Positions 29,505-44,551 of a stretch of 57,078 nt of DNA are shown piece by piece. The stretch is taken from positions 1-57,078 of the forward strand of contig JAJYYU010000002.1 of assembly GCA_021800515.1 (NCBI GenBank), given 5' to 3'. The notes below the pieces were generated by a model. That model was not told the DNA's origin. It made no database searches and saw only the letters and a list, made by a program, of their open reading frames with translations. Both the position numbers and the translations under genes were made by a program. Source of the stretch: Microcaldota archaeon. GTDB lineage: Archaea; Micrarchaeota; Micrarchaeia; Micrarchaeales; Micrarchaeaceae. Numbering within the stretch: position 1 is the stretch's first letter; every line of letters begins with the position of its first letter.

Positions 29505-30332
29505 ATGTTTTCGATAGTGTATTTTATGCCTGAACCACCAAAAATTGCAACAGCAGCAGACAGCGCCCCAAATGCCGTAAACGTGACTACTCAGAAAGCT
29601 GTACAGCAGCAAGTCCAGCAGGAAAATATACCTTATGTCGAGTCTATAAAAATTAATGCAAAGCTTGTGCAAAACCTAGATGCTACATATAATTCAATTT
29701 CCAACATTGCATTGTTTTCTGCCCATCTAAATCCTGATAACATAATAATGTTTAGAGTAGAAAGCAGGGACTTACAGAAAAAGCCATTTCTTTTTACTAT
29801 AATTTATTTTAACAAGGATTCAATAGAAATAAAATATTCGATTGCATTTGATGCAAGCAAGAAGCTTCGCAGACTTTCTATAATGAAGGACTTTCTAGGC
29901 ATATTTTCGACAATAACAGATGCTTACCAGATCGAGATAAAGGAGTTATTCCGTCATCTTGATTCTATGATAGACGATGTTTTGAACTCATTATCTCAAA
30001 ATTATAGTACGTTGTTCAATAATTATGATGCAATGTTCAATGAGTATAATGAACTCAAGAAAATAAATCTTGATCTTGCAGCCTCAAACAAGAGCCTTGC
30101 TGCATCCGGCATGGTTCTTGAACAGAAAAATAAGGAGCTTACTGAAAAGCTAAAAAGCCTTGAAATATATTCTGATGAGTCTCTCATGGTAATGGTTGAA
30201 GAATGGATTGAAGCCCATGGCAACAGCATAGACATAAATGAATTTGCCAAAAGTTACAAACTTCTGCCTCCAAGGGTAGAACAGATATTAAATAAAATGG
30301 TAAGCCTTGGGTATTTAGAGCTAAAAGGATAA
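29505..30332 (+). CDS. Predicted coiled-coil protein with C-terminal winged helix
   Basis: The protein has 275 residues. After a low-complexity Ala/Gln N-terminus (about 10-45) comes a mixed alpha/beta domain (about 48-130). A long coiled coil follows (about 140-222, including LAASGMVLEQKNKELTEKLKSLE). The C-terminal 50 residues (VEEWIEAHGNSIDINEFAKSY and the part ending VSLGYLEL) look like a winged helix. ATG at 29526 (MPEPPK) is an alternative start. The gene is divergent from top6B across a short AT-rich promoter region. It could be a DNA-binding or scaffold protein; no family recognised. Confidence 0.7.
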   Translation: MFSIVYFMPEPPKIATAADSAPNAVNVTTQKAVQQQVQQENIPYVESIKINAKLVQNLDATYNSISNIALFSAHLNPDNIIMFRVESRDLQKKPFLFTIIYFNKDSIEIKYSIAFDASKKLRRLSIMKDFLGIFSTITDAYQIEIKELFRHLDSMIDDVLNSLSQNYSTLFNNYDAMFNEYNELKKINLDLAASNKSLAASGMVLEQKNKELTEKLKSLEIYSDESLMVMVEEWIEAHGNSIDINEFAKSYKLLPPRVEQILNKMVSLGYLELKG

Positions 30333-30508: not shown

Positions 30509-33049
30509 ATGGCAAGGATAAACAAGACTGCGAGTTTATTAAAAGAACACAGGATGCTCATTGTGGCACTCCTTGCTGTCGTGGTTATTGTTATTGGTCT
30601 TATTATTTATGTGCATTTACTGTTGCAAAATGCCTCAGCATCTTACCCTATAAAGAATTTAACATTAAAATCAAGCATAAGTTCAAACCTTGTTTCGTCT
30701 TATTTCATATTCTATAACAATACAAATTTATCTACGCAGACTATAAAACAGATTCGTTCAAATTACATATTGAATATGTTTCCGTATTCCCTTATCTCTT
30801 ATAACACCTACAATATCTCAAATTTAACAATAAATGAATCTGTTTTCAAGCAAAAAATTCCATCTCATATCTATATTTGGAATACAAGCGGCCAGTGCTT
30901 CAGGTGTCAAAATATGGATCTTGTTGAATCATTGCTTGTAAAATACCTTGCCCATTACGACATCAATGACTCAATACAAGTTATTTCTTTTGCAAATATA
31001 ACACAAATTCATAATAATTCAATACTGCTTGTTACGACAGGGCTCATGCCCCAGCAGATGTTCCTTCCAGTAAATAATTCCACACAGACAGAAACGATAA
31101 CGTACCTGCTTAGCAAAGGGACAAGTATAATCTATACTGGTCAAAATTTCTCAAGGGCTGTGCAAACCCCTTTTTCAACGCCTATTCCTGCAACTCCTCC
31201 CTATTATTTATATTCAATTCCAAACACTTCTATTTATAACTCAAGCTTTTATTTTACTGCAAAAACCTTCAATCTATATAATGGCACTAATTATGGACCT
31301 GCAGTTTATCTTAATTATCTGAATGGATCATTAGTAATTTTTTCAAATTACCCAGACACATGGAAATCTACAGAGGAATATACTGCAGATATTGCAAAGT
31401 CAATTGCAGAGCTTTTCTGGATTCCAAAATATGCAAGCGGTTCAAGAACTGTAGAACTAAGCAATTTCAAGCATTCTGTAGGCAAAGTAGGAATAGTCCT
31501 AAACTCATTTTCTGTGCCATATTCAGAGTCAAATTATAGCCAGCTTGTGGCAGAGTTCAATACTGGATACCCAAGACTTGTTATCTCAAATTCACGAAAT
31601 TACTCATTCTACCTTAACTTTTCCCATCCTCTTATTCATTACAACTATACAGGAAACAATACAAGATATCGACTTTCATTTAACCTATCTAATTATACTC
31701 ATTTTTCATATATTGAGCCCCGATCTAATTTTTCCTTGTCTGGTAGTCTTGCAATCCCTAGTGTTATCCTGCCAACAATACCTATCTCGGCAAACATTAC
31801 TGCATTTATAACATGTACAAGCAAAAACCAAGTTATAGAGCCATCAATATATTTTTATACAATAAACATGACAGAAATAGGCTCGCCAATATTCCTTGGT
31901 TATCATTATCCTTGCAAAGGCATGCAAAATATGTCAAGCAAGGCATTTTCATTTTTTTACTATCCTACTTTCAATCTTCCAGGAGGAGTTTATCTTGCAA
32001 TGGTCAAGAACTATAATTCTTCAATAATTTCTGGCGGATTATTCAGCATGCCAAATATAACCATAAAATTGATCTCAGAGGATCTCAAAAATAATATTTT
32101 TGTTTTTTATGTAAGATCAGACAATCGTTCCCTTTCAGGGATTCCATATGCATTAAATCTTGAGGGCTTTACAAATCAGACAGGCACTATAACAAATGGT
32201 ACCATTACTTATTCTTTGCCAAAAGGCACTATAATACCTAATACGCAGACATTCAATTTTACATTGTATATGTTAAGTCATAAGTATACCTATATAGCAC
32301 CTGGTAATCCTATAAAGATTGTAGTAAATCAGAAATATATAATATTAGGCGTTGTAGGAGCAATAACTCTTCTCATGCTTATTCTTGTTAAAGCACCAAA
32401 TCGTGATGAATTTTATATAGATATCCCATCTATTCCACCTCAGAAAAAAATACCTGTAGTTATTGATAAAAAAACTATACTGAGTATCTTCACAAAGCTC
32501 AATCTTTATTATCACTGGAAGTTCATGCCTCTTTCAAAAGATGAGATAAGACTAGGCATCTTCAATAACATTAGATTCAATGGGATGCCTGTTAATGTAA
32601 CTTATGAAAACCTTGATAGATTGCTCGGCCAACTTTTGTTCAACAAAGATATTTCAAGTATTGACAATCTTTACGCTCCAGATGATCTTATACAGCAAAG
32701 TGGGCATGATATAGAATACCTTGCGGTCTTCAAAAAAATGAGGGTTTTCTTTGTCTCCCATACATTTTTATTTACTGATATAAATATGAGCGATACGGCT
32801 GATATTGTAGCTACATTCCATAATCAAAAAATAAATATATTCATATACTCCCAGACAAGCAAATTCCAGAAAATACCGATATATGAAAATGCAAAAACTT
32901 ATATCGTATTTTTGAATGCAGATAGGATGGAAAATTTCAGATCTTACTTATATAATTCAGATTCTAACGAGGCAGAACTAATCAAACTTTACATCTCATC
33001 AGGTATCCTGAAGCTTATCAATGCAGACTCCCCAGATATAGTTATATAA
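30509..33049 (+). CDS. Large two-TM surface protein with cytosolic C-terminal domain, unknown
   Basis: This is an 846-residue protein. One hydrophobic segment lies near the N-terminus (about 16-38). An extracellular region of about 570 residues follows, rich in N-x-S/T sequons, with a QCFRCQN CxxC. A second membrane segment (about 609-630, VGAITLLMLILV) leads to a cytosolic domain of about 215 residues with a restriction-endonuclease-like beta pattern near the end (ADIVATFHNQKINIFIYSQ). The topology suggests an anchored envelope protein or receptor with an inward domain. The first repeated blocks resemble archaeal surface beta domains (Ig-like). No family recognised. Confidence 0.78.
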   Translation: MARINKTASLLKEHRMLIVALLAVVVIVIGLIIYVHLLLQNASASYPIKNLTLKSSISSNLVSSYFIFYNNTNLSTQTIKQIRSNYILNMFPYSLISYNTYNISNLTINESVFKQKIPSHIYIWNTSGQCFRCQNMDLVESLLVKYLAHYDINDSIQVISFANITQIHNNSILLVTTGLMPQQMFLPVNNSTQTETITYLLSKGTSIIYTGQNFSRAVQTPFSTPIPATPPYYLYSIPNTSIYNSSFYFTAKTFNLYNGTNYGPAVYLNYLNGSLVIFSNYPDTWKSTEEYTADIAKSIAELFWIPKYASGSRTVELSNFKHSVGKVGIVLNSFSVPYSESNYSQLVAEFNTGYPRLVISNSRNYSFYLNFSHPLIHYNYTGNNTRYRLSFNLSNYTHFSYIEPRSNFSLSGSLAIPSVILPTIPISANITAFITCTSKNQVIEPSIYFYTINMTEIGSPIFLGYHYPCKGMQNMSSKAFSFFYYPTFNLPGGVYLAMVKNYNSSIISGGLFSMPNITIKLISEDLKNNIFVFYVRSDNRSLSGIPYALNLEGFTNQTGTITNGTITYSLPKGTIIPNTQTFNFTLYMLSHKYTYIAPGNPIKIVVNQKYIILGVVGAITLLMLILVKAPNRDEFYIDIPSIPPQKKIPVVIDKKTILSIFTKLNLYYHWKFMPLSKDEIRLGIFNNIRFNGMPVNVTYENLDRLLGQLLFNKDISSIDNLYAPDDLIQQSGHDIEYLAVFKKMRVFFVSHTFLFTDINMSDTADIVATFHNQKINIFIYSQTSKFQKIPIYENAKTYIVFLNADRMENFRSYLYNSDSNEAELIKLYISSGILKLINADSPDIVI

Positions 33050-34570: not shown

Positions 34571-35191
34571 ATGCATGCAAAAAAATCAAAGAAAAGTTTA
34601 GCGCTTGATGTTGATGGAGTAATAATAGATCTTGTTCCAAAGATCTGTGAAATGAATCCCCAGTCTGGCGTCTGTAAAGAGGATATTACAGAATACGGCT
34701 TGTCTACAGTACCCCAGCTTAGCATCGATGCATTTATGAAGTCATATAAAGATATATGGGATCTGCAAAAATCAAATTGGAATAAAAATATAATTACACC
34801 TCTTGATTCAAATATCCCTGCAATAATATATAGTCTCAGTGCAAATTATGAGATTTATGTAGTGACTGCGTCTATAGATCCTAGTTCAGTATATAAATGG
34901 CTTATTAAAAATAATATCATAATCAGCAGGGATCACTTTATTTCTTGCAAGGCTGAAGAAAAAGTTAATTACAATTTTGATATATACATTGATGATTACC
35001 CTGAAATTGCAAAAAAAGTTGCAGAAACCAATAAAATCGCAATTGTTTATAAGCAGCCATGGAATGCCATCTTTTTAAGGAATAATAGAAATAAAAGCAT
35101 AATACCTGTTGATGATTGGAATGGGATAAATAGAATACTTGAAGACATTGCGCTGAAACAAAGTATGCCAAAATTAAGAAACAAGGAATAA
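34571..35191 (+). CDS. HAD-superfamily phosphatase, 5'(3')-nucleotidase-like
   Basis: The 206-residue protein opens with the HAD nucleophile motif ALDVDGVIIDL (DxDGV). It has a motif II serine or threonine in VVTASID and finishes with IYIDDYPEIAKKVAE, the acidic motif IV. The small helical cap between about 20 and 100 suits the 5'(3')-deoxyribonucleotidase subfamily, so dephosphorylation of a small nucleotide or sugar phosphate is likely. The exact substrate cannot be inferred. It converges on the pilus-like cluster with only 23 bases between stops. Confidence 0.78.
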   Translation: MHAKKSKKSLALDVDGVIIDLVPKICEMNPQSGVCKEDITEYGLSTVPQLSIDAFMKSYKDIWDLQKSNWNKNIITPLDSNIPAIIYSLSANYEIYVVTASIDPSSVYKWLIKNNIIISRDHFISCKAEEKVNYNFDIYIDDYPEIAKKVAETNKIAIVYKQPWNAIFLRNNRNKSIIPVDDWNGINRILEDIALKQSMPKLRNKE

Positions 35192-35214: not shown

Positions 35215-36366
35215 CTATATAAAGCTCCTCATTCTACCACCCATTTTTGCTACGCCTCCAAGGAATGTTGCCAATTGGGTTATTGCCGCGTATGCAACAG
35301 CTATAATGAGGACAGGATAAAACAACAACATAAGCCAGAAACCTGCCATTGCATTCTGTGCATCTTTTAATTGCAGAATAAGAGGGCTTGCAGGAGTCAG
35401 TGCATTTGTTATTGATCCTTGGCCTGCTCCAAACTTATTAAGCAATGTAGCTGCAGTATTCATCTCATTCAGCGCATTTGGCGCAGTGAAATAAAAGGCA
35501 ATTGCGAACATAGTTGGCACAATAAGGTAGAAAGTTATTGCAATCGCCATTAACATTCCTCCAAGTGCCCGTGTGGGTATTATTGCCCGGAATATAACGC
35601 CTGGAATTAGGAATACTGGTATTGAGGCAATAGCAAAGAATACAATAAGGTAATATTCTGCCCAGAGGAGCATTATTCCATCAGAAATTATATTCATTAA
35701 AGCCATGCTTGGATCAAGATAAAGAAAAGAAATAGCAAATTTCCCAATTGCTAGGGCAATATTTTCGCCACTGCCTATAGATGCCAAGGTTTTAGCTAGT
35801 ACGCCTTCTAAAACGCTAACAGTTCCGCCTACGGTAAGAGTATATGAAAAATAATACTGAATCTTGAAGTAGATGAAAAAAAGACTAGAATACAGAGATT
35901 GTGCCTGGCTTATTACTTGTGTAATATAATGCAGGGCTGTTGCATAAGGATTTATAGGGCCTACAGTAAGTCCGGGGAGTATCCCAAATACTACGGCACA
36001 TACATATAAGAAAATCGCAACAATAATGCCTGTTGCTGCAGCTTCATATAGTTCAGCTATTCCAAAACTTTTAATTTTGCTGCTTCCTGCCAACGCACCA
36101 CCCATATAAATTACGCCTGCAATTGCAAATGAGATAAGTACGGCAATCCACATTAGTGATGCATATTTTTCGAATACTGCATCAATTTGCGCATTTATAG
36201 GGCAATACCACGGCTCTGTTCCCGCAACAATAGATTGTATTGATGACGGTAGTGTTGAGCAACCAGGCTGAGCTGATGATAAGGGTATAGTAAAAGAGGC
36301 ATGCGCTGCTGCCAATGAAGCTATTGCAATAATAAACATCAAACTGATTTTAAATATTTTTTTCAT
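35215..36366 (-). CDS. Polytopic membrane protein, VirB6/TrbL-like paralogue family (member 6 of 6)
   Basis: The protein has 383 residues: a signal peptide (about 1-24), then about eight membrane segments. It shows the two blocks shared by six proteins of this cluster. Block A is IYMGGALAG followed by KSFGIAELYE (about residues 86-108). Block B is FRAIIPTRALGGMLMAIAI (about 255-275), preceding a LIVP turn. The architecture (signal peptide, external loop, helices, conserved positive/Gly-Gly linker before the last helix pairs) resembles VirB6/TrbL channel proteins of conjugation systems. It is the last gene of the minus-strand run. The relation to VirB6 is inferred from topology and context, not from recognised sequence identity. 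Confidence 0.75.
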   Translation of the reverse strand: MKKIFKISLMFIIAIASLAAAHASFTIPLSSAQPGCSTLPSSIQSIVAGTEPWYCPINAQIDAVFEKYASLMWIAVLISFAIAGVIYMGGALAGSSKIKSFGIAELYEAAATGIIVAIFLYVCAVVFGILPGLTVGPINPYATALHYITQVISQAQSLYSSLFFIYFKIQYYFSYTLTVGGTVSVLEGVLAKTLASIGSGENIALAIGKFAISFLYLDPSMALMNIISDGIMLLWAEYYLIVFFAIASIPVFLIPGVIFRAIIPTRALGGMLMAIAITFYLIVPTMFAIAFYFTAPNALNEMNTAATLLNKFGAGQGSITNALTPASPLILQLKDAQNAMAGFWLMLLFYPVLIIAVAYAAITQLATFLGGVAKMGGRMRSFI

Positions 36367-36411
36367 ATAATCCTTTGCATTATATTCTGATGATACTACA
36401 ATTACTTATTT

Positions 36412-37506
36412 CTATATGACGCCAGCAAGTAAGCTCATGAAATCCATTCTTTCTCCGATTGCGCTTGAAAAATCAATAATAAATGCATCTAATATAATGA
36501 AATTTAAAAATGGAACAAATGTAAGTCCTCCTATTATATAGCCGATGCCCATTGCAAATTGACCACTTATAAATATATTCTGTAACCCTATCAAGTTTGA
36601 ACCTATTGTCAACCAAATTCCGTCCATTGCGGATATTATTTGTAGAATAACTGAAACAGGAGTAACAGTGCCGATCTGGACTGTAAGAAAGCCATAGGTA
36701 AGAGCCGTAAGTAGAGGCAGAATAAGCCCTAATCCAACTCCGAGTGCTATCATTGCTCCACCAAAAGTCCTTGTCACACCGAATATCCTTGATATAAGGC
36801 CTATAGCCATAAATAAAGATAGAAAAAGAAGCGATGAGGATACTATCATCAGTTGCATCTGGTTAAGCACAAGCATGAAGAGTATACTGCTGAAGAAGAT
36901 AGAAATAAATTCTGTATCTGATTTCGGCATAAGGCTTTCCAATCCTGCACTAATCCCAACATTACCTAGCTTTCCTTTTGAAAGAGCACCAAAACCTATA
37001 TTTACTTCTACTCCTGGAGTCAGACTGAGCAGGGTTGAAGACCAGAAAAAGATCTGAAGATATGTTTCGATATCTGAATTAAATGTACTTAAGTCACATG
37101 CTGAAAGCGTAAACAAGTCGCTCACACCTGTACACTGGTTAGGCACAAGATGCATCTGCTGAAAGCTGGGTACTGGATTTGTAAAGAAATATGCGCTAAT
37201 CCAGACAAATATCAGCAATAATATAAACGATAGAATTGCCTCATATATCTGCATTTTTGCCCATGCTTCAACTCGTGTATTAAACATGAACCTACTAAGC
37301 ATATAAATAAATACTGCAACTACCATCACTACGAATACGCCAATAAGCGCAGTACTTTCCCAGTTTACAATGTTTATAGGCTCTGAGGAAGAAGGTGAAA
37401 CTGCGAATGTTATTCCTGTTAAAACCATGGCTAAGATTAAAGCTGAAAAGATAAGAACGCCCTTTCTTATTTTTTGTTTTTTCCTGTTTTGCGCCATGTT
37501 CTTCAT
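36412..37506 (-). CDS. Polytopic membrane protein, VirB6/TrbL-like paralogue family (member 5 of 6)
   Basis: A 364-residue protein. A basic n-region (NRKKQKIRKG) leads a signal-peptide-like helix (about 17-36). Block A reads VFIYMLSRFMF and then EAWAKMQIYEA. Block B reads SRIFGVTRTFGGAMIALGV with a LILP turn following. Around seven membrane helices are visible. A two-Cys external loop (CTGVSDLFTLSAC) may form a disulfide. It begins 45 bases downstream of the previous gene and is followed 45 bases later by the next member, so all are likely in one transcript. Confidence 0.75.
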   Translation of the reverse strand: MKNMAQNRKKQKIRKGVLIFSALILAMVLTGITFAVSPSSSEPINIVNWESTALIGVFVVMVVAVFIYMLSRFMFNTRVEAWAKMQIYEAILSFILLLIFVWISAYFFTNPVPSFQQMHLVPNQCTGVSDLFTLSACDLSTFNSDIETYLQIFFWSSTLLSLTPGVEVNIGFGALSKGKLGNVGISAGLESLMPKSDTEFISIFFSSILFMLVLNQMQLMIVSSSLLFLSLFMAIGLISRIFGVTRTFGGAMIALGVGLGLILPLLTALTYGFLTVQIGTVTPVSVILQIISAMDGIWLTIGSNLIGLQNIFISGQFAMGIGYIIGGLTFVPFLNFIILDAFIIDFSSAIGERMDFMSLLAGVI

Positions 37507-37551
37507 TTTATTATTATTTTATTATTTATTACTATTTTGTTTTTGTCTAGG

Positions 37552-38688
37552 TTATATTACTTTCTTAAGCATGTGCTTTGAACTCAATGATGTGGCTCCA
37601 AGCAGTTTTCCGACTTCTTCCATAAATGTGAAGGAAATTATAAGTGAGAATATTAGGATTATCAGGTTATACAATAAGGGCTCAAGAATGTCTTTTGTGA
37701 GGAATTCAATTGGTGGTACAAGTATACCTCCACTAGTTATTGACACAAAATTAGTTAGGGAATCAGTTACGCTTGTAAATCCACTTGGCTGGAATGCAGA
37801 GGTTATTTGGCTTTGTGCAGTAGCACTTGGATTGTTGCAGAAGTTTGTTGAACTTGATGATGAAGACGCAGAGGAAACAGTAGACGATGATGAGGCACAG
37901 GGTATAGCAAGTGGGCCCATTAATCCAAAGCTAAGCAAAAGAGGAAACATAACAAACATTCCAGCAAACATCCCAAGGAATGCCCCGCCTGCTGCCCGCG
38001 TCCAAGGCAATGCTCTTAATACTATACCTAGATAAAGGAAAATCGGAAAAAAAGCATATATTATTCCAAGTACTAATGATACTCCAAACAGCAGCATAAT
38101 AAGCATCCCACTAATTCCTATCACCATGTTTATTGGTGTAGAAATAATATTAAATCCTGAGAAAGGAGATACTGAAATCCCCATATATATAGGGTAAACA
38201 GATAAGTTTATGCTTGAAATAGTCTTTAAAATCAGCTGAGAAACAGAAAGTTCAAGCATGGGCAGCATAAGACCTAAAGAAGAGGAAGTCATGCTTATGC
38301 AGTCTGTTGTAAATAGATTTGTTACCGGTGACGAGCCCCCTTTTGCAGATCCAAACATGGAAAGGGATTGAATAAAAATAAAAGCAATAATGCCTGTTAT
38401 CAGGATTTCGCCAATTTCTGATTTTGTGAAAACTATTAATTTTTGGATTCCAAATGCACTGCCTATAGCATATGTAATTCCAAGCACAGCTATCATTGTA
38501 GATATTATAAGAATTACTGTATTGAGCAGTGCAGTATTGTTTGTCGGCGAAAAGGTAAACATCAAATTGCTTGGATTTATGACCTGGCTGCAGAACTGCG
38601 TAATTGTTTCGGCATGGGCGCTTGTCAAAAGCAGCGCAAGCACGGCAATGATTGCCAGGAGCTTTTTATTTAGTATCTTTTCAATCAT
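37552..38688 (-). CDS. Polytopic membrane protein, VirB6/TrbL-like paralogue family (member 4 of 6)
   Basis: The protein has about 378 residues from ATG 38688 (a TTG one codon earlier is the other choice). It has a clean signal peptide (LLAIIAVLALLLTSAHA). Block A reads GITYAIGSAFG, then FTKSEIGE. Block B reads LRALPWTRAAGGAFLGMFAG with an MFP turn. A Ser-rich loop of about 18 residues (STVSSASSSSSSTNF) sits outside the membrane. About eight helices are predicted. The protein belongs to the same run of same-strand genes and looks like a distant paralogue of its neighbours. Confidence 0.75.
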   Translation of the reverse strand: MIEKILNKKLLAIIAVLALLLTSAHAETITQFCSQVINPSNLMFTFSPTNNTALLNTVILIISTMIAVLGITYAIGSAFGIQKLIVFTKSEIGEILITGIIAFIFIQSLSMFGSAKGGSSPVTNLFTTDCISMTSSSLGLMLPMLELSVSQLILKTISSINLSVYPIYMGISVSPFSGFNIISTPINMVIGISGMLIMLLFGVSLVLGIIYAFFPIFLYLGIVLRALPWTRAAGGAFLGMFAGMFVMFPLLLSFGLMGPLAIPCASSSSTVSSASSSSSSTNFCNNPSATAQSQITSAFQPSGFTSVTDSLTNFVSITSGGILVPPIEFLTKDILEPLLYNLIILIFSLIISFTFMEEVGKLLGATSLSSKHMLKKVI

Positions 38689-38749
38689 CAAACCATTTAT
38701 TGTTGTTTATTGATTTATTGTTTATTGCATTTAATATTCTATATACTGT

Positions 38750-40312
38750 TTATATTAGTTTAGACAATCCTGCAAGATCAGTATCACCGCCGAATAATCC
38801 TGAAAGCCCTATTATAGAGGATAAAACAATGAAAATATTTATTATCGGAAGGAAAAATGATGTAATGCCTATTATTCCATAGCTCTCCATTAACTTATTG
38901 AAAACGCGCAGAAGGTCATTCGGCTTGCAATTAGGGTCTATCGCGATGCTTGGCGGATTTCCTATGATTCCTTCTACATTTGAGGCTGCAGCCTCAAAGA
39001 GCGATACACCAGGTACAAGCATCTCAATAGTATCAAGGCTTTCCCCAAGGACCAGATTATTATCAGTTGGCCAACACCAGTAATAATATGCAATTTTGTT
39101 TATCTCAGGCTCAACAAAAAAGTTAAGATTATACGGATCCTGTACAGCATTATTAGGGGAATATTGCACATTGGTTGTACCTGAAGGGTAACCAGGGATA
39201 AATGTTATTTCATTTGATGCGATTGTATTGAAACCATAATCATATCCTATGCAGCCCTGCCCACTGCCAGAGCTACACGTGCCTGATGAAGACGATATAA
39301 GCCCACTTATTCCATTGCCAAGACCAAGGTACTCAAGGCTGAATATTGCAGGAAATATAAGTATCATCCCCAATCCTACGGCTATTAACAGGCCTCCTAT
39401 CTTCCTAGTGAATAATGTTGACCTGAGTACAAGCCCGCCAAAGATAAGCCAAGGCCATACATAAAGGGAGATTATGAGAATAAGGAACTGCGCAATAAAA
39501 GAGTTGGCAGACATAGTAAGAAGAGATCCTAGCGTGCCTAGCTCACTGTATATTATGTTGTAACCTGCATATGGCGCAAATGTAATGCGGGTGTAGAATA
39601 TAGGTAAATTAACCCAAGCACCTATTCCTCCTTCCCCTCCGGCAAAGAATGCAGCTGCAGAGCAACCGATGCTTGCTGAGATAACATCAACTTCCATTTC
39701 AATAGAATATGTAAGCCCTGGCTCGCACCATGCAACCGTAGGCTTGAAGTTTGAAAGGAAGCCGACATAAGAGTCAAGAATGAAGAAGCTATTTAAATTA
39801 TGGAAGGTCTGGTTTGTGATATTGGCAAGTATAACACCGGAAGCCACTAAAGGATAGTCAATTTTTCGAGTGGGCGAATCAAGGGATGTCATTGAACAAA
39901 GCCCTGGAAATTGGGGATCTGAGGATTTTAGGAAAGAATATGAACCTGAAAAAATAGAGAGAGAGGAATGGGAATTTAAGTAATTGCACAGCGTATCTAC
40001 TGTGCCTGGGCTCATAGGCGCTGTTGCAGAGGATGCTGTTTTAGAACTATAGAGAAAGTGGGAAGAAGTTAGAGCAGAATCAAATGCTGATGCGAAAACA
40101 AGCAGGGATCCTATTATTATTGCAGCTAGGATTGCAGTCCCCACAGCCTGGTATGCCTCTGATTTTGCACCCTCAACGACCTTTGAATTGTTGAGTGCAT
40201 ATCCGACCATGTACCATACGCCGACAATTGCGAAATCAAGCGCAAGGGCTAATATGACAAGGGGTATAAGGCTTGTCTCTGTTGTTGTAAAGCTTGTCAA
40301 AAACAAAAACAT
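38750..40312 (-). CDS. Polytopic membrane protein, VirB6/TrbL-like paralogue family (member 3 of 6)
   Basis: A 520-residue protein, the largest in the set. It lacks an N-terminal signal peptide and starts directly with a membrane helix. Block A reads GVWYMVGYALN, then KSEAYQAVGT. Block B reads LRSTLFTRKIGGLLIAVGL with a LIFP turn. Two large external loops, one of about 150 residues between helix 2 and the next helices and another Ser/Gly/Cys-rich one after block B, hold several Cys that could pair outside. An AT-rich A/G-only leader precedes it on the minus strand (about 40370-40440). Function inferred from the cluster. Confidence 0.75.
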   Translation of the reverse strand: MFLFLTSFTTTETSLIPLVILALALDFAIVGVWYMVGYALNNSKVVEGAKSEAYQAVGTAILAAIIIGSLLVFASAFDSALTSSHFLYSSKTASSATAPMSPGTVDTLCNYLNSHSSLSIFSGSYSFLKSSDPQFPGLCSMTSLDSPTRKIDYPLVASGVILANITNQTFHNLNSFFILDSYVGFLSNFKPTVAWCEPGLTYSIEMEVDVISASIGCSAAAFFAGGEGGIGAWVNLPIFYTRITFAPYAGYNIIYSELGTLGSLLTMSANSFIAQFLILIISLYVWPWLIFGGLVLRSTLFTRKIGGLLIAVGLGMILIFPAIFSLEYLGLGNGISGLISSSSGTCSSGSGQGCIGYDYGFNTIASNEITFIPGYPSGTTNVQYSPNNAVQDPYNLNFFVEPEINKIAYYYWCWPTDNNLVLGESLDTIEMLVPGVSLFEAAASNVEGIIGNPPSIAIDPNCKPNDLLRVFNKLMESYGIIGITSFFLPIINIFIVLSSIIGLSGLFGGDTDLAGLSKLI

Positions 40313-40449
40313 TCAATCATTTAAACTTATTTTATTTGTATGCAGCAGCGCTTTTTATTTTACAATTTAACTTTTACTTCTTTTATTTTTATTTCTTTTT
40401 CTATCTTTTATTTTTTTAATTAATATTTTTATTGCACTTTATTAAATTA

Positions 40450-41799
40450 TCATGTGAGGTTTGAATTAAGGGCTCTTGCAAGGCCCATTGCAAATCCCAG
40501 GGTTATTGCAAAGTCTATTGCTATCATAAATACAACTGTAAACTCAAACTGGGCAATTTCATTCACCATCGTAAGCAGGTCCTGCATTAAAATATTTGGG
40601 TCTATGCTTGCCCAGATCATATTGCCAGTAAGCGCTGATGTATAGATATTAAATAAAGATGGAACATTTAATCCAAACCATGAAGATGGTGTGGGATTTG
40701 ATGAAAAAAGCCCTGTTTCCTGTACTGAAGAAAGAAGATACGTAGAATGTATATATGTGTAAGAAGGATTGCTTGAGCTGAAAATCCAGTTTATTGCCCA
40801 TGCATTGAACACTATCGTCAATGGAAGAACTAGATAAAATGCTATTGCAATTGCAAGTATACTGTTTGCTGCATTCTTGAGCCCTACGCTTTTGGCAGAA
40901 CCCATGCCTGCGCCGAACCCGGAAAATGCAATAACTCTCATTATAAGTGCAACAGGAAGTACAACAGTAAATGCGATTGCCTGTATTACTGGCAGCAGAA
41001 GCCATAATATGTATAACATTCCTATGCCAGTTATCACAAATGGGGCGAAAAAGGTAAGCAGCATATCACTTATTATCGCGTATGAAGCACCTAAATCATA
41101 ACCTGATGTAAATGATACGCCTATTGAGATGCCGTTTGAAAAGCTAACAAGGCTGCTTAAACCTGTAAGTATCTTCTCAAGTATGCTTGACAAACCAGTA
41201 GCACTTGAAAGAACAGTAAATAGTAATGATCCGATATTCTTGAAAATCATGCTGTCAATGTTAAATGCTATTGCCTCTGTATAAATCTGCTGTAAAAGTT
41301 TTATGCCGACATTATTTGCAAGGTTTCCAACATAATACTCGCTGAACTGGAATGGACTTCCGGATGGCAGAGGACTTGAGCTAGTGCTCAGAGAGCTCGC
41401 AATTGAGCTTGTTATAGAACATGCAGTATTTGTAAATGTGAGCAGTATTACGAGGATTGCAGCACCTATAATTATCTGCATTATCTCAACTTTTGCAGCC
41501 TGAGAAAACTTCTGGCTCTCCTTTGTTGATAGAAATCTTGAAAACATGAACACGATCGCGACAACAAGAAGACTTATAATCAGTACTATCACATTTATTG
41601 AAACCCAATTGTTGTAATCAGTATACCCGCTGCCTCCAAATAGGCTGCAAGAGTTATATGATGGTCCTGTATTAGTGGGAATCGGATTTGAATTTGGAAT
41701 TGCTTGGGAAAATGATACCACTGCAAAAAATGAGACTGCCAGCACTGCGATTAATATTGCATAAATCTTTCTATTGCTGCCTGATTTTATTGAACCCAT
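40450..41799 (-). CDS. Polytopic membrane protein, VirB6/TrbL-like paralogue family (member 2 of 6)
   Basis: The protein has about 449 residues from ATG 41799, preferred to the TTG at 41817. A signal peptide (about 8-30, ending VVSFSQA) is followed by an external loop with one Cys. Block A reads VAIVFMFSRFLS, then FSQAAKVEIMQ. Block B is more divergent (IMRVIAFSGFGAGMGSAK) but is followed by the same hydrophobic LVLP turn. About nine helices and a long Ser-rich outer loop are seen. It is in the middle of the minus-strand run; context suggests a membrane-channel role. Confidence 0.73.
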   Translation of the reverse strand: MGSIKSGSNRKIYAILIAVLAVSFFAVVSFSQAIPNSNPIPTNTGPSYNSCSLFGGSGYTDYNNWVSINVIVLIISLLVVAIVFMFSRFLSTKESQKFSQAAKVEIMQIIIGAAILVILLTFTNTACSITSSIASSLSTSSSPLPSGSPFQFSEYYVGNLANNVGIKLLQQIYTEAIAFNIDSMIFKNIGSLLFTVLSSATGLSSILEKILTGLSSLVSFSNGISIGVSFTSGYDLGASYAIISDMLLTFFAPFVITGIGMLYILWLLLPVIQAIAFTVVLPVALIMRVIAFSGFGAGMGSAKSVGLKNAANSILAIAIAFYLVLPLTIVFNAWAINWIFSSSNPSYTYIHSTYLLSSVQETGLFSSNPTPSSWFGLNVPSLFNIYTSALTGNMIWASIDPNILMQDLLTMVNEIAQFEFTVVFMIAIDFAITLGFAMGLARALNSNLT

Positions 41800-41855
41800 A
41801 ATCTCATTTTCAAACAATTATAAATTAATATTGCATAAACATTAAGATAAAATTT

Positions 41856-43181
41856 TTAAATCAATGATAATTTTCCAATGCCTAATGCCATTTTCCTGCC
41901 TCCGAGCATTGTAGAAATCTGCTGGCCTATGACAATTGTTATTATCAAATCTATTATAAGCAAGATGAATTGGATTATCAATGGAAGAATCCACCCAAGT
42001 ATTGCATTGTATACAGTGAATATCCCTGTCATCGGTCCAAATAGACCTATTACAAGGCCATTTGCAAAATTTACAGTGTCAGGATTGACTAAAGCACATA
42101 ATGGGGTTAAAAAAGTAACCATGCTTTGAAGCAATGTACATTCTAAAGGCCCAGCAGAAATAGCCACTGAAGAAGGCACAGCAGGAGGATTAAGTATGCC
42201 TGTCATAAAGTTCTGTACAGGCAGGTTAACTGCAAGCAGCAATGTAGGAAAAACTAGAGAGATTGCAATTGCAAATGCAATTAGCATGCCGCCAATAGGC
42301 CTTAGGAAAGGCATTGACCTGAATATTATGCCGATTGGTAGAAGCACAGAAAGGCTTGTTACAAGTAGTGGAATCATAACGTCATTAAGGAACTGGAAAA
42401 GCACTAGCAGAGGTACAGTTATAAAATCAAATGCCTGGTTGACAAAAGAGTACGACTGACCAGAGATAAGCACATTTGAAAAGAACACATTTTCCTGTAC
42501 TCCTGTTGCTAGTGCCCCTGCAACAGCTCCTGGAATTGGCAAAATAGGAATTGGGATATTAAGGTATATAACAAAAGATTTTATAAAGTCAAGCCCGACA
42601 GCGACTCCAAGGATTCCATAATATGCTGGATATGCGACAGCATTGAGCTCAGGAGAGATATAATTATTCTGCACGTTTGAGTAAAGCGTGCTTAGGGTTG
42701 AGCTTAAGCCATTGCTGCCTGAAGGCGTGGATGGCAATGCGCCACTTCCAGTGAGTGCATTTGCAACTCCTCCTATTTCGACAAGCAGAGAGTAGATTAT
42801 AACAATAAGCAATACGCTTTTTGCAGTTTCCCAAAGTTCGCCTTTGTACCAGCCCTTGAATTCGTCAATTTTTATTACTTCCCCAATCATATATGAAACA
42901 GCGACCATAAGAAATGAGATGATAAGCGCAAGCACGGCAATTGAAGCAGATTTTTCAATGCAATTGCCTACAGATGTTTTCGTCCCGGTTACGATACAGT
43001 ATGCGTTAGTTAGCTTATTATTTACTGCTGCAGGTGTTGTCGTTGATGACGGTGTACAACTGAAACTGATGGTGCATGAAGGAGTCGAAGCTGCAGGTTT
43101 CGCATTAAGAAAGAAAACCATGCCGAGTACGAATAGCAAAAAAAATAGGATTATTCTCCTGCCAAACTCTGTTCTATTCAT
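41856..43181 (-). CDS. Polytopic membrane protein, VirB6/TrbL-like paralogue family (member 1 of 6)
   Basis: A 441-residue protein with a signal peptide (about 9-30, ending LNAKPAAS). Its outer loop has several Cys, including SCTISFSC, CIV and GNCIE. Block A reads VAVSYMIGEVI followed by FKGWYKGELWET. Block B reads FRSMPFLRPIGGMLIAFAIA, then a LVFP turn. About eight helices are visible. It follows the 248-residue membrane protein and pilin genes in the same direction. The conserved block B linker with Arg and Gly-Gly is the best hallmark of the family. Confidence 0.75.
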   Translation of the reverse strand: MNRTEFGRRIILFFLLFVLGMVFFLNAKPAASTPSCTISFSCTPSSTTTPAAVNNKLTNAYCIVTGTKTSVGNCIEKSASIAVLALIISFLMVAVSYMIGEVIKIDEFKGWYKGELWETAKSVLLIVIIYSLLVEIGGVANALTGSGALPSTPSGSNGLSSTLSTLYSNVQNNYISPELNAVAYPAYYGILGVAVGLDFIKSFVIYLNIPIPILPIPGAVAGALATGVQENVFFSNVLISGQSYSFVNQAFDFITVPLLVLFQFLNDVMIPLLVTSLSVLLPIGIIFRSMPFLRPIGGMLIAFAIAISLVFPTLLLAVNLPVQNFMTGILNPPAVPSSVAISAGPLECTLLQSMVTFLTPLCALVNPDTVNFANGLVIGLFGPMTGIFTVYNAILGWILPLIIQFILLIIDLIITIVIGQQISTMLGGRKMALGIGKLSLI

Positions 43182-43328
43182 ATTTACTTTTTTCGTATAA
43201 ACCTTTAATATCCTTTCTTTTATTTTACATTTTGCCTTAGCTTTATTTAATTATTTTATGGTATAAAAGAAAGACAAAAGTTTAGGATGCAAAAATATAG
43301 CAGTATTTGATATATCCTTGTTAAATTA

Positions 43329-44075
43329 TTATCTCAGCAGTGCAAACCTGTGCATATAAGATTCTGCTTGCAGGATTACAATAAAAGGCAGTATGAAGAT
43401 GGAATTAAATACAAGCATCAAATATATTGAGAAAAATGGGGAGACAGCAAGAGAATTCCCAATCAGAATGAAAATAAAATCAAAGAATGTAATCAATGCC
43501 ACTGCAATTACTATCCAAATCAAGAAATAAATAGGTTTCTTTACAATGAAAGCAATGCTCCTTTTAAATGCAGGAATCAATTTTGCATCATCATTTATTA
43601 TTGAAGATGGTGCATAAAAAAATAGAGGGGTAAGTAGAAGAAAAATAATTGAGGATATAAGACCAGCATTGCTTGCAGTATAAAATGCTAATGCAATAGA
43701 AATAATCAAAATCAATACTGCAAATATTAATAATATAAGGAAAACCTTTGACGTATATTTTTCCAGTCCAAGCAGCACCTCCTGTCGTATCTTGGAATAA
43801 GTTCTCTTGTGTTTTATTATTATATTTATTGATACTATTGCAAAACTTAAGAAAAGCATTGAAAAAAATACAGATAGTATTATAATAAATATATTAAATG
43901 CAGTAAGACTTGCTAGGTTTGTTACTCTTAAAAAAATACCCCCTGCATCATTGAATATCACAAAACTTGCAAAAAATGGGATAAAAAGAGCAATAAAAAA
44001 AGAAAGAGAAGAAAACAAAATAAGAACAATGTGCTTAAAATAGGTTTCTATACTATTTAAGACAACATTGCTCAT
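43329..44075 (-). CDS. Six-helix membrane protein of the pilus-like cluster, unknown
   Basis: The protein has 248 residues with about six helices and no signal peptide. The fold pattern (helix pairs, a basic cytosolic loop KHKRTYSKIRQEVLLGLEKY, then a polar segment IINDDAKLIPAFKRSIAFI) recalls archaeal DUF7847/glycerophosphodiester phosphodiesterase-type membrane domains. It does not carry the block A or B motifs of the six paralogues next to it. It starts 32 bases after the pilin stop and is probably co-expressed. Its function in the cluster is not clear. Confidence 0.72.
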   Translation of the reverse strand: MSNVVLNSIETYFKHIVLILFSSLSFFIALFIPFFASFVIFNDAGGIFLRVTNLASLTAFNIFIIILSVFFSMLFLSFAIVSINIIIKHKRTYSKIRQEVLLGLEKYTSKVFLILLIFAVLILIISIALAFYTASNAGLISSIIFLLLTPLFFYAPSSIINDDAKLIPAFKRSIAFIVKKPIYFLIWIVIAVALITFFDFIFILIGNSLAVSPFFSIYLMLVFNSIFILPFIVILQAESYMHRFALLR

Positions 44076-44107
44076 TGAATCCTTTACTTATTTAATAACT
44101 TAAAAAT

Positions 44108-44551
44108 TTATATAGGCGTTCCATTGCAAGTCTGGGTGGTTTGTATGCCTGAACTTGTATTGCCTACTATCATTTTTATGATATCCGGACCGAGTATTAC
44201 TAATATAATACCGACAACGCCACCAAGCAGCATACCATATGCATAACCTTCAAGCTGACCTTTTAAATTGCCTGGTAGTATACGTGAAGCAGCATATAAT
44301 GATCCTCCTCCGACCATAAGCACTATTGCAAGAACGAATACAACATCCATTATTGTGCTATAAACATTACATAAAACATTGTTAATCGCAGCTGATCCTT
44401 GCGATGATCCGCCAGTTCCAGGTATCGCCGTCGTTATCTGTGCAAACATCAAGCTAGTTAAACTTAAAACTACTGAAGCTATTATAACCAGTAGTTTAAA
44501 ATTCATTTTTTTGCTTATATCCCATAATCTAAAATATAGATTTTGATTCAT
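44108..44551 (-). CDS. VirB2/TrbC-like pilin
   Basis: The protein has 147 residues from ATG 44551. An internal ATG at 44506 gives a cleaner signal peptide, NFKLLVIIASVVLSLTSLMFA. The mature part is short (about 100-110 residues) with two hydrophobic helices: about 64-85 with VFVLAIVLMVGGGSLYAASR, and about 101-120 with MLLGGVVGIILVILGPDII. A polar loop PGNLKGQLEGYA separates them, and a single Cys sits before helix 1. This matches VirB2/TrbC conjugative pilins, including those now recognised in archaeal Ced/Ted DNA-import systems. It is the first gene of an eight-gene minus-strand cluster of membrane proteins and so would be the pilus subunit. The assignment comes from pattern, not a search. 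Confidence 0.78.
   Translation of the reverse strand: MNQNLYFRLWDISKKMNFKLLVIIASVVLSLTSLMFAQITTAIPGTGGSSQGSAAINNVLCNVYSTIMDVVFVLAIVLMVGGGSLYAASRILPGNLKGQLEGYAYGMLLGGVVGIILVILGPDIIKMIVGNTSSGIQTTQTCNGTPI

Follow-up and report, generated by a model that had tools for sequence, protein, structure and literature searches.

The window analysed here, a 57,078-nucleotide stretch forming contig C38 of an 803-kb, 49-contig Micrarchaeota genome, carries adjacent minus-strand genes for a VirB2/TrbC-like pilin, a membrane protein with six transmembrane (TM) segments (M248), and six polytopic paralogues termed VirB6-like (B6a to B6f). These genes are probably the half of a Micrarchaeota-wide translocator that supplies its membrane and pilus parts; the machine would derive from type IV secretion systems (T4SS) and conjugation machinery and is closest in plan to the archaeal DNA import systems Ced and Ted. 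The best reading of this machine is a domesticated, single-membrane, T4SS-derived apparatus.

The gene cluster and the pilin

The eight open reading frames run from 44551 down to 35215 and are all present and uninterrupted, with gaps of about 33-150 nt, which agrees with the closely spaced, same-strand arrangement given in the preliminary description. Their lengths from 44551 downward are 147, 248, 441, 455, 520, 379, 364 and 383 aa; TM counts, here and below, come from a simple hydropathy scan. The genes are:

44108..44551, minus strand: VirB2/TrbC-like pilin, 147 aa, with an N-terminal signal-like helix and two hydrophobic helices (Pfam TrbC and TrwL profile matches)
43329..44075, minus strand: M248, 6-TM membrane protein of 248 aa between the pilin and the six-gene array (same place in relatives)
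41856..43181, minus strand: B6a, VirB6-like paralogue, position 1 of 6 (leave-one-out profile E 6.7e-34; position group in the tree)
40450..41817, minus strand: B6b, VirB6-like paralogue, position 2, block B lost (leave-one-out profile E 1.3e-20)
38750..40312, minus strand: B6c, VirB6-like paralogue, position 3, where relatives have the longest inserts (leave-one-out profile E 5.8e-29; lengths)
37552..38691, minus strand: B6d, VirB6-like paralogue, position 4 (leave-one-out profile E 5.3e-24)
36412..37506, minus strand: B6e, VirB6-like paralogue, position 5 (leave-one-out profile E 6.2e-25; tree support 0.992)
35215..36366, minus strand: B6f, VirB6-like paralogue, position 6 (leave-one-out profile E 5.7e-29; tree support 0.998; AlphaFold model)

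The cluster is conserved with the same gene order in relatives. For example, a near-identical cluster was found in one Micrarchaeota relative (94% identity for B6a). All eight genes are under strong purifying selection (omega 0.02-0.07, against locus L007). A cluster 88% identical to that of the window also occurs in JAMCYJ010000015.1 (L006), a record titled Candidatus Marsarchaeota, which is probably mislabelled or a mixed bin.

Judged by its profile matches, the first gene encodes a VirB2/TrbC-like pilin, as proposed earlier. The 147-aa protein itself matches the Pfam TrbC/VirB2 family with an E of 2.8e-4, below the cut-off; among the members of its family (the window protein and 19 homologues), TrbC was matched by 13 of 20 and T4SS_pilin by 12 of 20. 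The sole specific match of the family profile in the PDB is the TrwL pilin (E 9e-4), and hhalign of the pilin against TrwL of plasmid R388 gave P=83 and E 9e-6. Micrarchaeota families were also compared in a matrix with the VirB2-VirB10 families of seven conjugative plasmids; the pilin matches VirB2 only and the ATPases match VirB4 only, while the signal of the remaining Micrarchaeota families was not above noise. The VirB2-type pilin expected of the type IV secretion/conjugation superfamily is therefore represented by the 147-aa protein. The B6 profile also picks up pilins weakly, with 11-22 bits (L057 3425-4181, L058 12828-13142), which echoes the published VirB2-VirB6 and CedA1-CedA similarity. 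M248 forms a family separate from the six paralogues (17 homologues, mean column identity 53%) and has no match in Pfam.

Homology of the six membrane proteins

The pairwise identity of the six polytopic proteins is only about 20%. When a profile is made from any five of the position groups, it nevertheless recovers the left-out window protein with an E of 1e-20 to 7e-34, and the leave-one-out profiles gave zero matches to 357 shuffled or reversed controls. By this profile evidence the six proteins are homologous beyond chance. The preliminary description had them share two sequence blocks, A and B; the homology holds, but the blocks are less strict than described. Block B in its strict form is present in B6a, B6c, B6e and B6f, occurs as a variant in B6d, and is absent from B6b. 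We infer the VirB6 label of the six proteins from their genomic context, their topology and the analogy with CedA.

The ATPase, the adaptors and the complete operon

The window encodes no VirB4/HerA ATPase, as had been noticed. Contig C26 of the same genome carries a 502-aa ATPase of the VirB4/HerA type together with two 280-aa two-TM proteins. The operon order in relatives is pilin, M248, six B6 genes, P287, P282, ATPase, P99, P155, P232 and P846 (the last being a surface protein of 800 residues), and the ATPase-containing half directly follows the six-gene array in most same-order relatives and in family f11. In the window's genus, P287, P282, the ATPase, P99 and P155 lie on another contig (C26 here). 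P232 and P846, the next-to-last and the last operon genes in relatives, stayed beside the array in inverted orientation, and a second genome of the same genus (G046) is arranged alike:

30509..33049, plus strand: P846, with two TM segments, a large region predicted to be extracellular, and a cytosolic-like domain at the C-terminus (operon position in relatives; alignment)
29505..30332, plus strand: P232-like soluble protein (jackhmmer, 254 bits to the P232 family; position in relatives)

Between the array and P846 lies a gene for a 206-aa soluble protein (34571-35191), which has no Pfam match above the cut-off and keeps its place within the genus.

The ATPase resembles VirB4 (4ag5) and HerA proteins in the PDB, and its profile matches VirB4 with P=97. 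The best NCBIfam models for the C26 protein are CedD (3.4e-21) and CedB (4.9e-18); the ATPases of both locus types (the second is described below) score 65-79 bits against CedB/CedD equivalog cut-offs of 600-700, and thus stay below equivalog level. A VirB4-type ATPase, as expected of the type IV secretion superfamily, is found by profile, in the operon of relatives, and on C26 in this genome. A GspE-type ATPase or a TadC/FlaJ-type platform, as would mark archaeal type IV pili of the Ups/Aap/archaellum type, was not detected by Pfam among the eight window genes, the C26 ATPase, P282 and P287. P99 is a stand-alone protein resembling the C-terminal helical domain of the neighbouring ATPase (L001 688-987, minus strand; L042 2823-3125). 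Near the relocated ATPase block, C26 also encodes a 921-aa protein in which two AAA modules come after about eight TM segments (L004 6497-9262).

P287 and P282, which lie between the array and the ATPase, are paralogous proteins with two TM segments and a soluble domain. In the PDB search with the AlphaFold model of P282 (pLDDT 82, pTM 0.68), the first three ranks went to chains from the inner-membrane complex of R388 (prob 0.90-0.96, E 0.16-0.18, TM-score 0.31-0.37), taken as TrwK/VirB4 from chain length and entry title. This top match had been recorded as an expectation before the search. Sequence searches of P282 and P287 against the PDB returned only coiled-coil noise, and profile comparisons gave no VirB3/VirB4 signal either. 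The model is suggestive of P287 and P282 being VirB3/VirB4-N-domain-like proteins. The likeness of P282 to VirB4 parallels a published observation on CedB and CedD: the N-terminal domain of VirB4 is split over separate proteins there, each of the two matching one part of it (PMC11868833).

Copy number and phylogeny

Every open frame in the fetched loci was scored with the B6 profile. All 64 complete arrays (32 in a first set and 32 in a second), representing 52 genomes and 18 families, contain exactly six B6 genes. One of the 64 (L100) has a frameshift in the third gene, and a candidate seventh gene there was rejected, being one gene split by the frameshift. Seven further arrays with 3-5 genes are cut by contig ends (L044, L084, L092, L096, L104, L109, L120). 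Position 3 has most of the large inserts (as much as 1165 aa where the array is intact).

A second locus type consists of a pilin, one B6 gene, a P267/P287-type adaptor and an ATPase. It always has exactly one B6 gene, which sits directly between the VirB2-like pilin and the VirB4-like ATPase. Such loci were found on contig C28 of the window's genome and recur elsewhere in the phylum (L061-L063, L073-L075, L087). The C28 locus (L005 9212-17361) is a second complete T4SS-like locus, which encodes a 131-aa pilin, one B6 protein, a two-TM adaptor, a 461-aa VirB4/CedB-like ATPase, two further membrane or soluble proteins, and a second ATPase of 788 aa; the latter gave a weak VirB4 signal in the family matrix (P 23-27).

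In a phylogenetic tree of 204 B6 sequences, the phylum-wide sets of position 6 and of position 5 are each monophyletic (support 0.998 and 0.992), and the single-copy sequences group in one clade (0.91). For each of positions 1-4, clades are seen among the same-order sequences and among those of the other families, but these halves are not united with good support. By this tree, the six positions are ancient positional orthologues, and the array is therefore older than the divergence of the sampled families. In many class-level families a genome has two six-gene arrays at separate sites, which seem to be of two types and usually lie away from the ATPase locus (L067/L068, L069/L070, L071/L076, L081/L082, L085/L086, L088/L089, L090/L091, L094/L095, L097/L098, L099/L100, L101/L102).

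Distribution in the phylum

Among 245 genomes of the phylum, VirB6-like proteins were found in 220 and the ATPase in 214. Both occur in 210 genomes, B6 alone in 10 and the ATPase alone in 4; 21 genomes lack both (Fisher p 4e-19, without correction for phylogeny). The preliminary description had made its proposal depend on a HerA/VirB4 association in relatives; the association is present, both in these counts and in the shared operon of most same-order relatives. The listed members of families f10, f13, f15 and part of f17 have neither B6 nor ATPase, and several of these genomes are larger (1.2-1.4 Mb); the double absence suggests loss of the whole system. A scan of genome contigs with one fast-evolving protein returned just two near relatives.

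The conjugation-type components might also belong to a mobile conjugative element or its remnant, and the Mia14 genomic islands were suggested to be conjugative (PMC5498576). This explanation is extremely improbable. The positional orthologues are vertically consistent across the phylum and present in about 90% of genomes, and the neighbours of the cluster are core chromosomal genes, such as those for topoisomerase VI B and EF-1A. Moreover, B6f has no plasmid relative and the ATPase no relative on viral contigs, and no relaxase of PF03432 was found (other relaxase families were not searched).

Comparison with known systems

The crenarchaeal Ced system for DNA exchange (CedA, CedA1, CedA2, CedB, CedD, CedE) likewise combines a two-helix pilin, a polytopic channel-type protein and a VirB4/HerA-type ATPase, and CedD and CedB are the best NCBIfam models for the ATPases of both Micrarchaeota loci. 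The Micrarchaeota operon differs in its number of channel-type paralogues (six, against one or two in Ced), in its separate two-TM adaptors, and in the extra genes M248, P99, P155, P232 and P846. The Ted system of Thermoproteales (TedA, TedB, TedC) also has VirB2-like pilin, VirB6-like and VirB4-like genes in one locus (PMC9905601); whereas it has a single TedA, and its HerA, ParA and Rad50 genes were not seen in the Micrarchaeota operon. Saccharolobus has two CedA paralogues. The published accounts of Ced and Ted give one or two channel proteins, in agreement with the preliminary description, and do not mention DPANN archaea (PMC9905601, PMC11868833).

Among bacterial systems, the rvh T4SS of Rickettsiales shows an ancestral multiplication of VirB6 which was kept through genome reduction in host-dependent cells, with very large inserts in some paralogues (PMC2653234). 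However, it has five RvhB6 proteins, four of them arrayed together, in which VirB6/TrbL domains are detectable, and it also has an outer-membrane core, VirB11 and VirD4 in a bacterial diderm envelope. The Trw system of R388 resembles the Micrarchaeota system in the TrwL profile match and in the P282 structural matches; whereas it has a VirB6 homopentamer, an outer-membrane core, VirB11 and a relaxase (PMC9259494). The T4SS of Patescibacteria is widespread and domesticated in ultra-small, host-dependent cells (PMC12102498). It is bacterial, its detected VirB6 is annotated as in other monoderm systems, and a six-gene array has not been reported. In nanohaloarchaea, a VirB4-like ATPase is tied to giant surface proteins (PMC10266531). 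In the open-access full texts searched for type IV secretion, VirB4 or VirB6 in connection with Micrarchaeota or DPANN, no account of this operon was found.

Weight of the evidence

Several results weigh against the interpretation as a T4SS-derived translocator. The Pfam TrbL model matched none of the six proteins and nothing in the genome. Searches for VirB6 with the six proteins by NCBIfam and by PDB sequence were negative, and so was hhalign against VirB6 of R388 alone or of the seven conjugative plasmids. The AlphaFold (AF2) model of B6f (pLDDT 79.6, pTM 0.71), a bundle of very long helices, has no significant match among PDB structures; the VirB6 chains of R388 come only 16th and 43rd in rank, without significance, albeit with a lower rmsd than the other listed matches and TM-scores tied for best. 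The P282 structural match has an E of only 0.16 and is without sequence support. Besides the missing PF03432 relaxase, the search for a coupling protein (PF02534) gave one sub-threshold match only, to the C28 ATPase. Known VirB6 platforms are homopentameric (PMC9259494), and a heterohexamer is without structural precedent. There is no direct evidence for a DNA cargo, and the sequence tells neither DNA from other cargo nor import from export.

The first of these results would also fit a reading in which the six proteins make up an unrelated transporter or envelope complex whose genes simply lie next to those of the pilin and the ATPase, since neither sequence similarity to VirB6/TrbL nor a significant fold match was found, and the six-gene arrays of class-level families usually lie apart from the ATPase locus. 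This is very unlikely, because the array shares an operon with the pilin, the adaptors and the ATPase in most same-order genomes and in f11, the single-copy homologue lies directly between pilin and ATPase, and B6 and the ATPase co-occur across the phylum. The preliminary description of a T4SS/Ced-like apparatus with six diverged paralogues is well supported in its core idea. The topology and context of the six proteins fit a VirB6/TrbL plan, but their VirB6 identity was not borne out by sequence, and the structural check gave nothing significant for B6f.

Proposed mechanism

In the T4SS-derived translocator, the six paralogues may assemble into a single, hetero-oligomeric platform or channel of the VirB6 kind, in the simplest case with one copy of each. 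This six-part platform would be seated on a hexameric ATPase and coupled to it through the two-TM adaptors P287 and P282. The pilin might be recruited to the platform and polymerise into, or line, a conduit or filament, and the large surface protein P846 would project from the cell and engage a partner cell. ATP hydrolysis would then move the substrate across the single membrane, most likely DNA from neighbouring or host cells. Import of DNA is favoured because the nearest ATPases are DNA importers.

The same machine might instead serve symbiosis, by bridging to a Thermoplasmatales-type host and taking up host macromolecules or delivering effectors, and not DNA exchange for repair. Such a host-contact role stays plausible because of the host-dependent lifestyle and because T4SS genes are essential for the epibiotic growth of a patescibacterium (PMC12102498). 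The system is also near-universal in a host-dependent phylum with small genomes, the operon includes the large surface protein P846, and studies of ARMAN/Micrarchaeota have observed pili-like bridges as well as filaments at host contacts (PMC5498576, PMC8975820). However, the nearest named ATPases point to DNA import, in the Micrarchaeum harzensis co-culture the filaments were ascribed to the host, and no effector gene was recognised in the operon. We regard a symbiotic role in place of DNA exchange as unlikely, though as the most serious of the alternatives.

With regard to the translocator itself, six distinct and invariably co-retained subunits suggest a heteromeric ring, possibly with one of each; R388, by contrast, has a homopentameric VirB6 platform together with hexameric VirB3, VirB4 and VirB8 (PMC9259494). 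A stronger version can be offered only tentatively. The six proteins might form an obligate heterohexameric VirB6-like channel, one of each, matched to a hexameric VirB4/Ced-type ATPase. It would be an asymmetric conduit for DNA or other macromolecules, fixed at the root of the phylum and essential for life on hosts, and would be the archaeal equivalent, reached by convergence, of the Rickettsia system with its five paralogues.

Implications

Micrarchaeota are poorly cultivated, host-associated archaea. The machine may serve the exchange of DNA or other material with neighbours or hosts. The near-universal operon, with its pilin, ATPase and fixed set of six membrane subunits, offers concrete targets for the long-standing question of how ARMAN-type cells are bridged to their hosts. 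That the number is always six, and has stayed so since an ancestor shared by at least 18 families, points to a VirB6-type platform of hetero-oligomeric build, which is at odds with the homopentamer of known T4SS. The multiplication itself has a bacterial precedent, and the Micrarchaeota array may be seen as an archaeal parallel to the multiplication of VirB6 in Rickettsiales.

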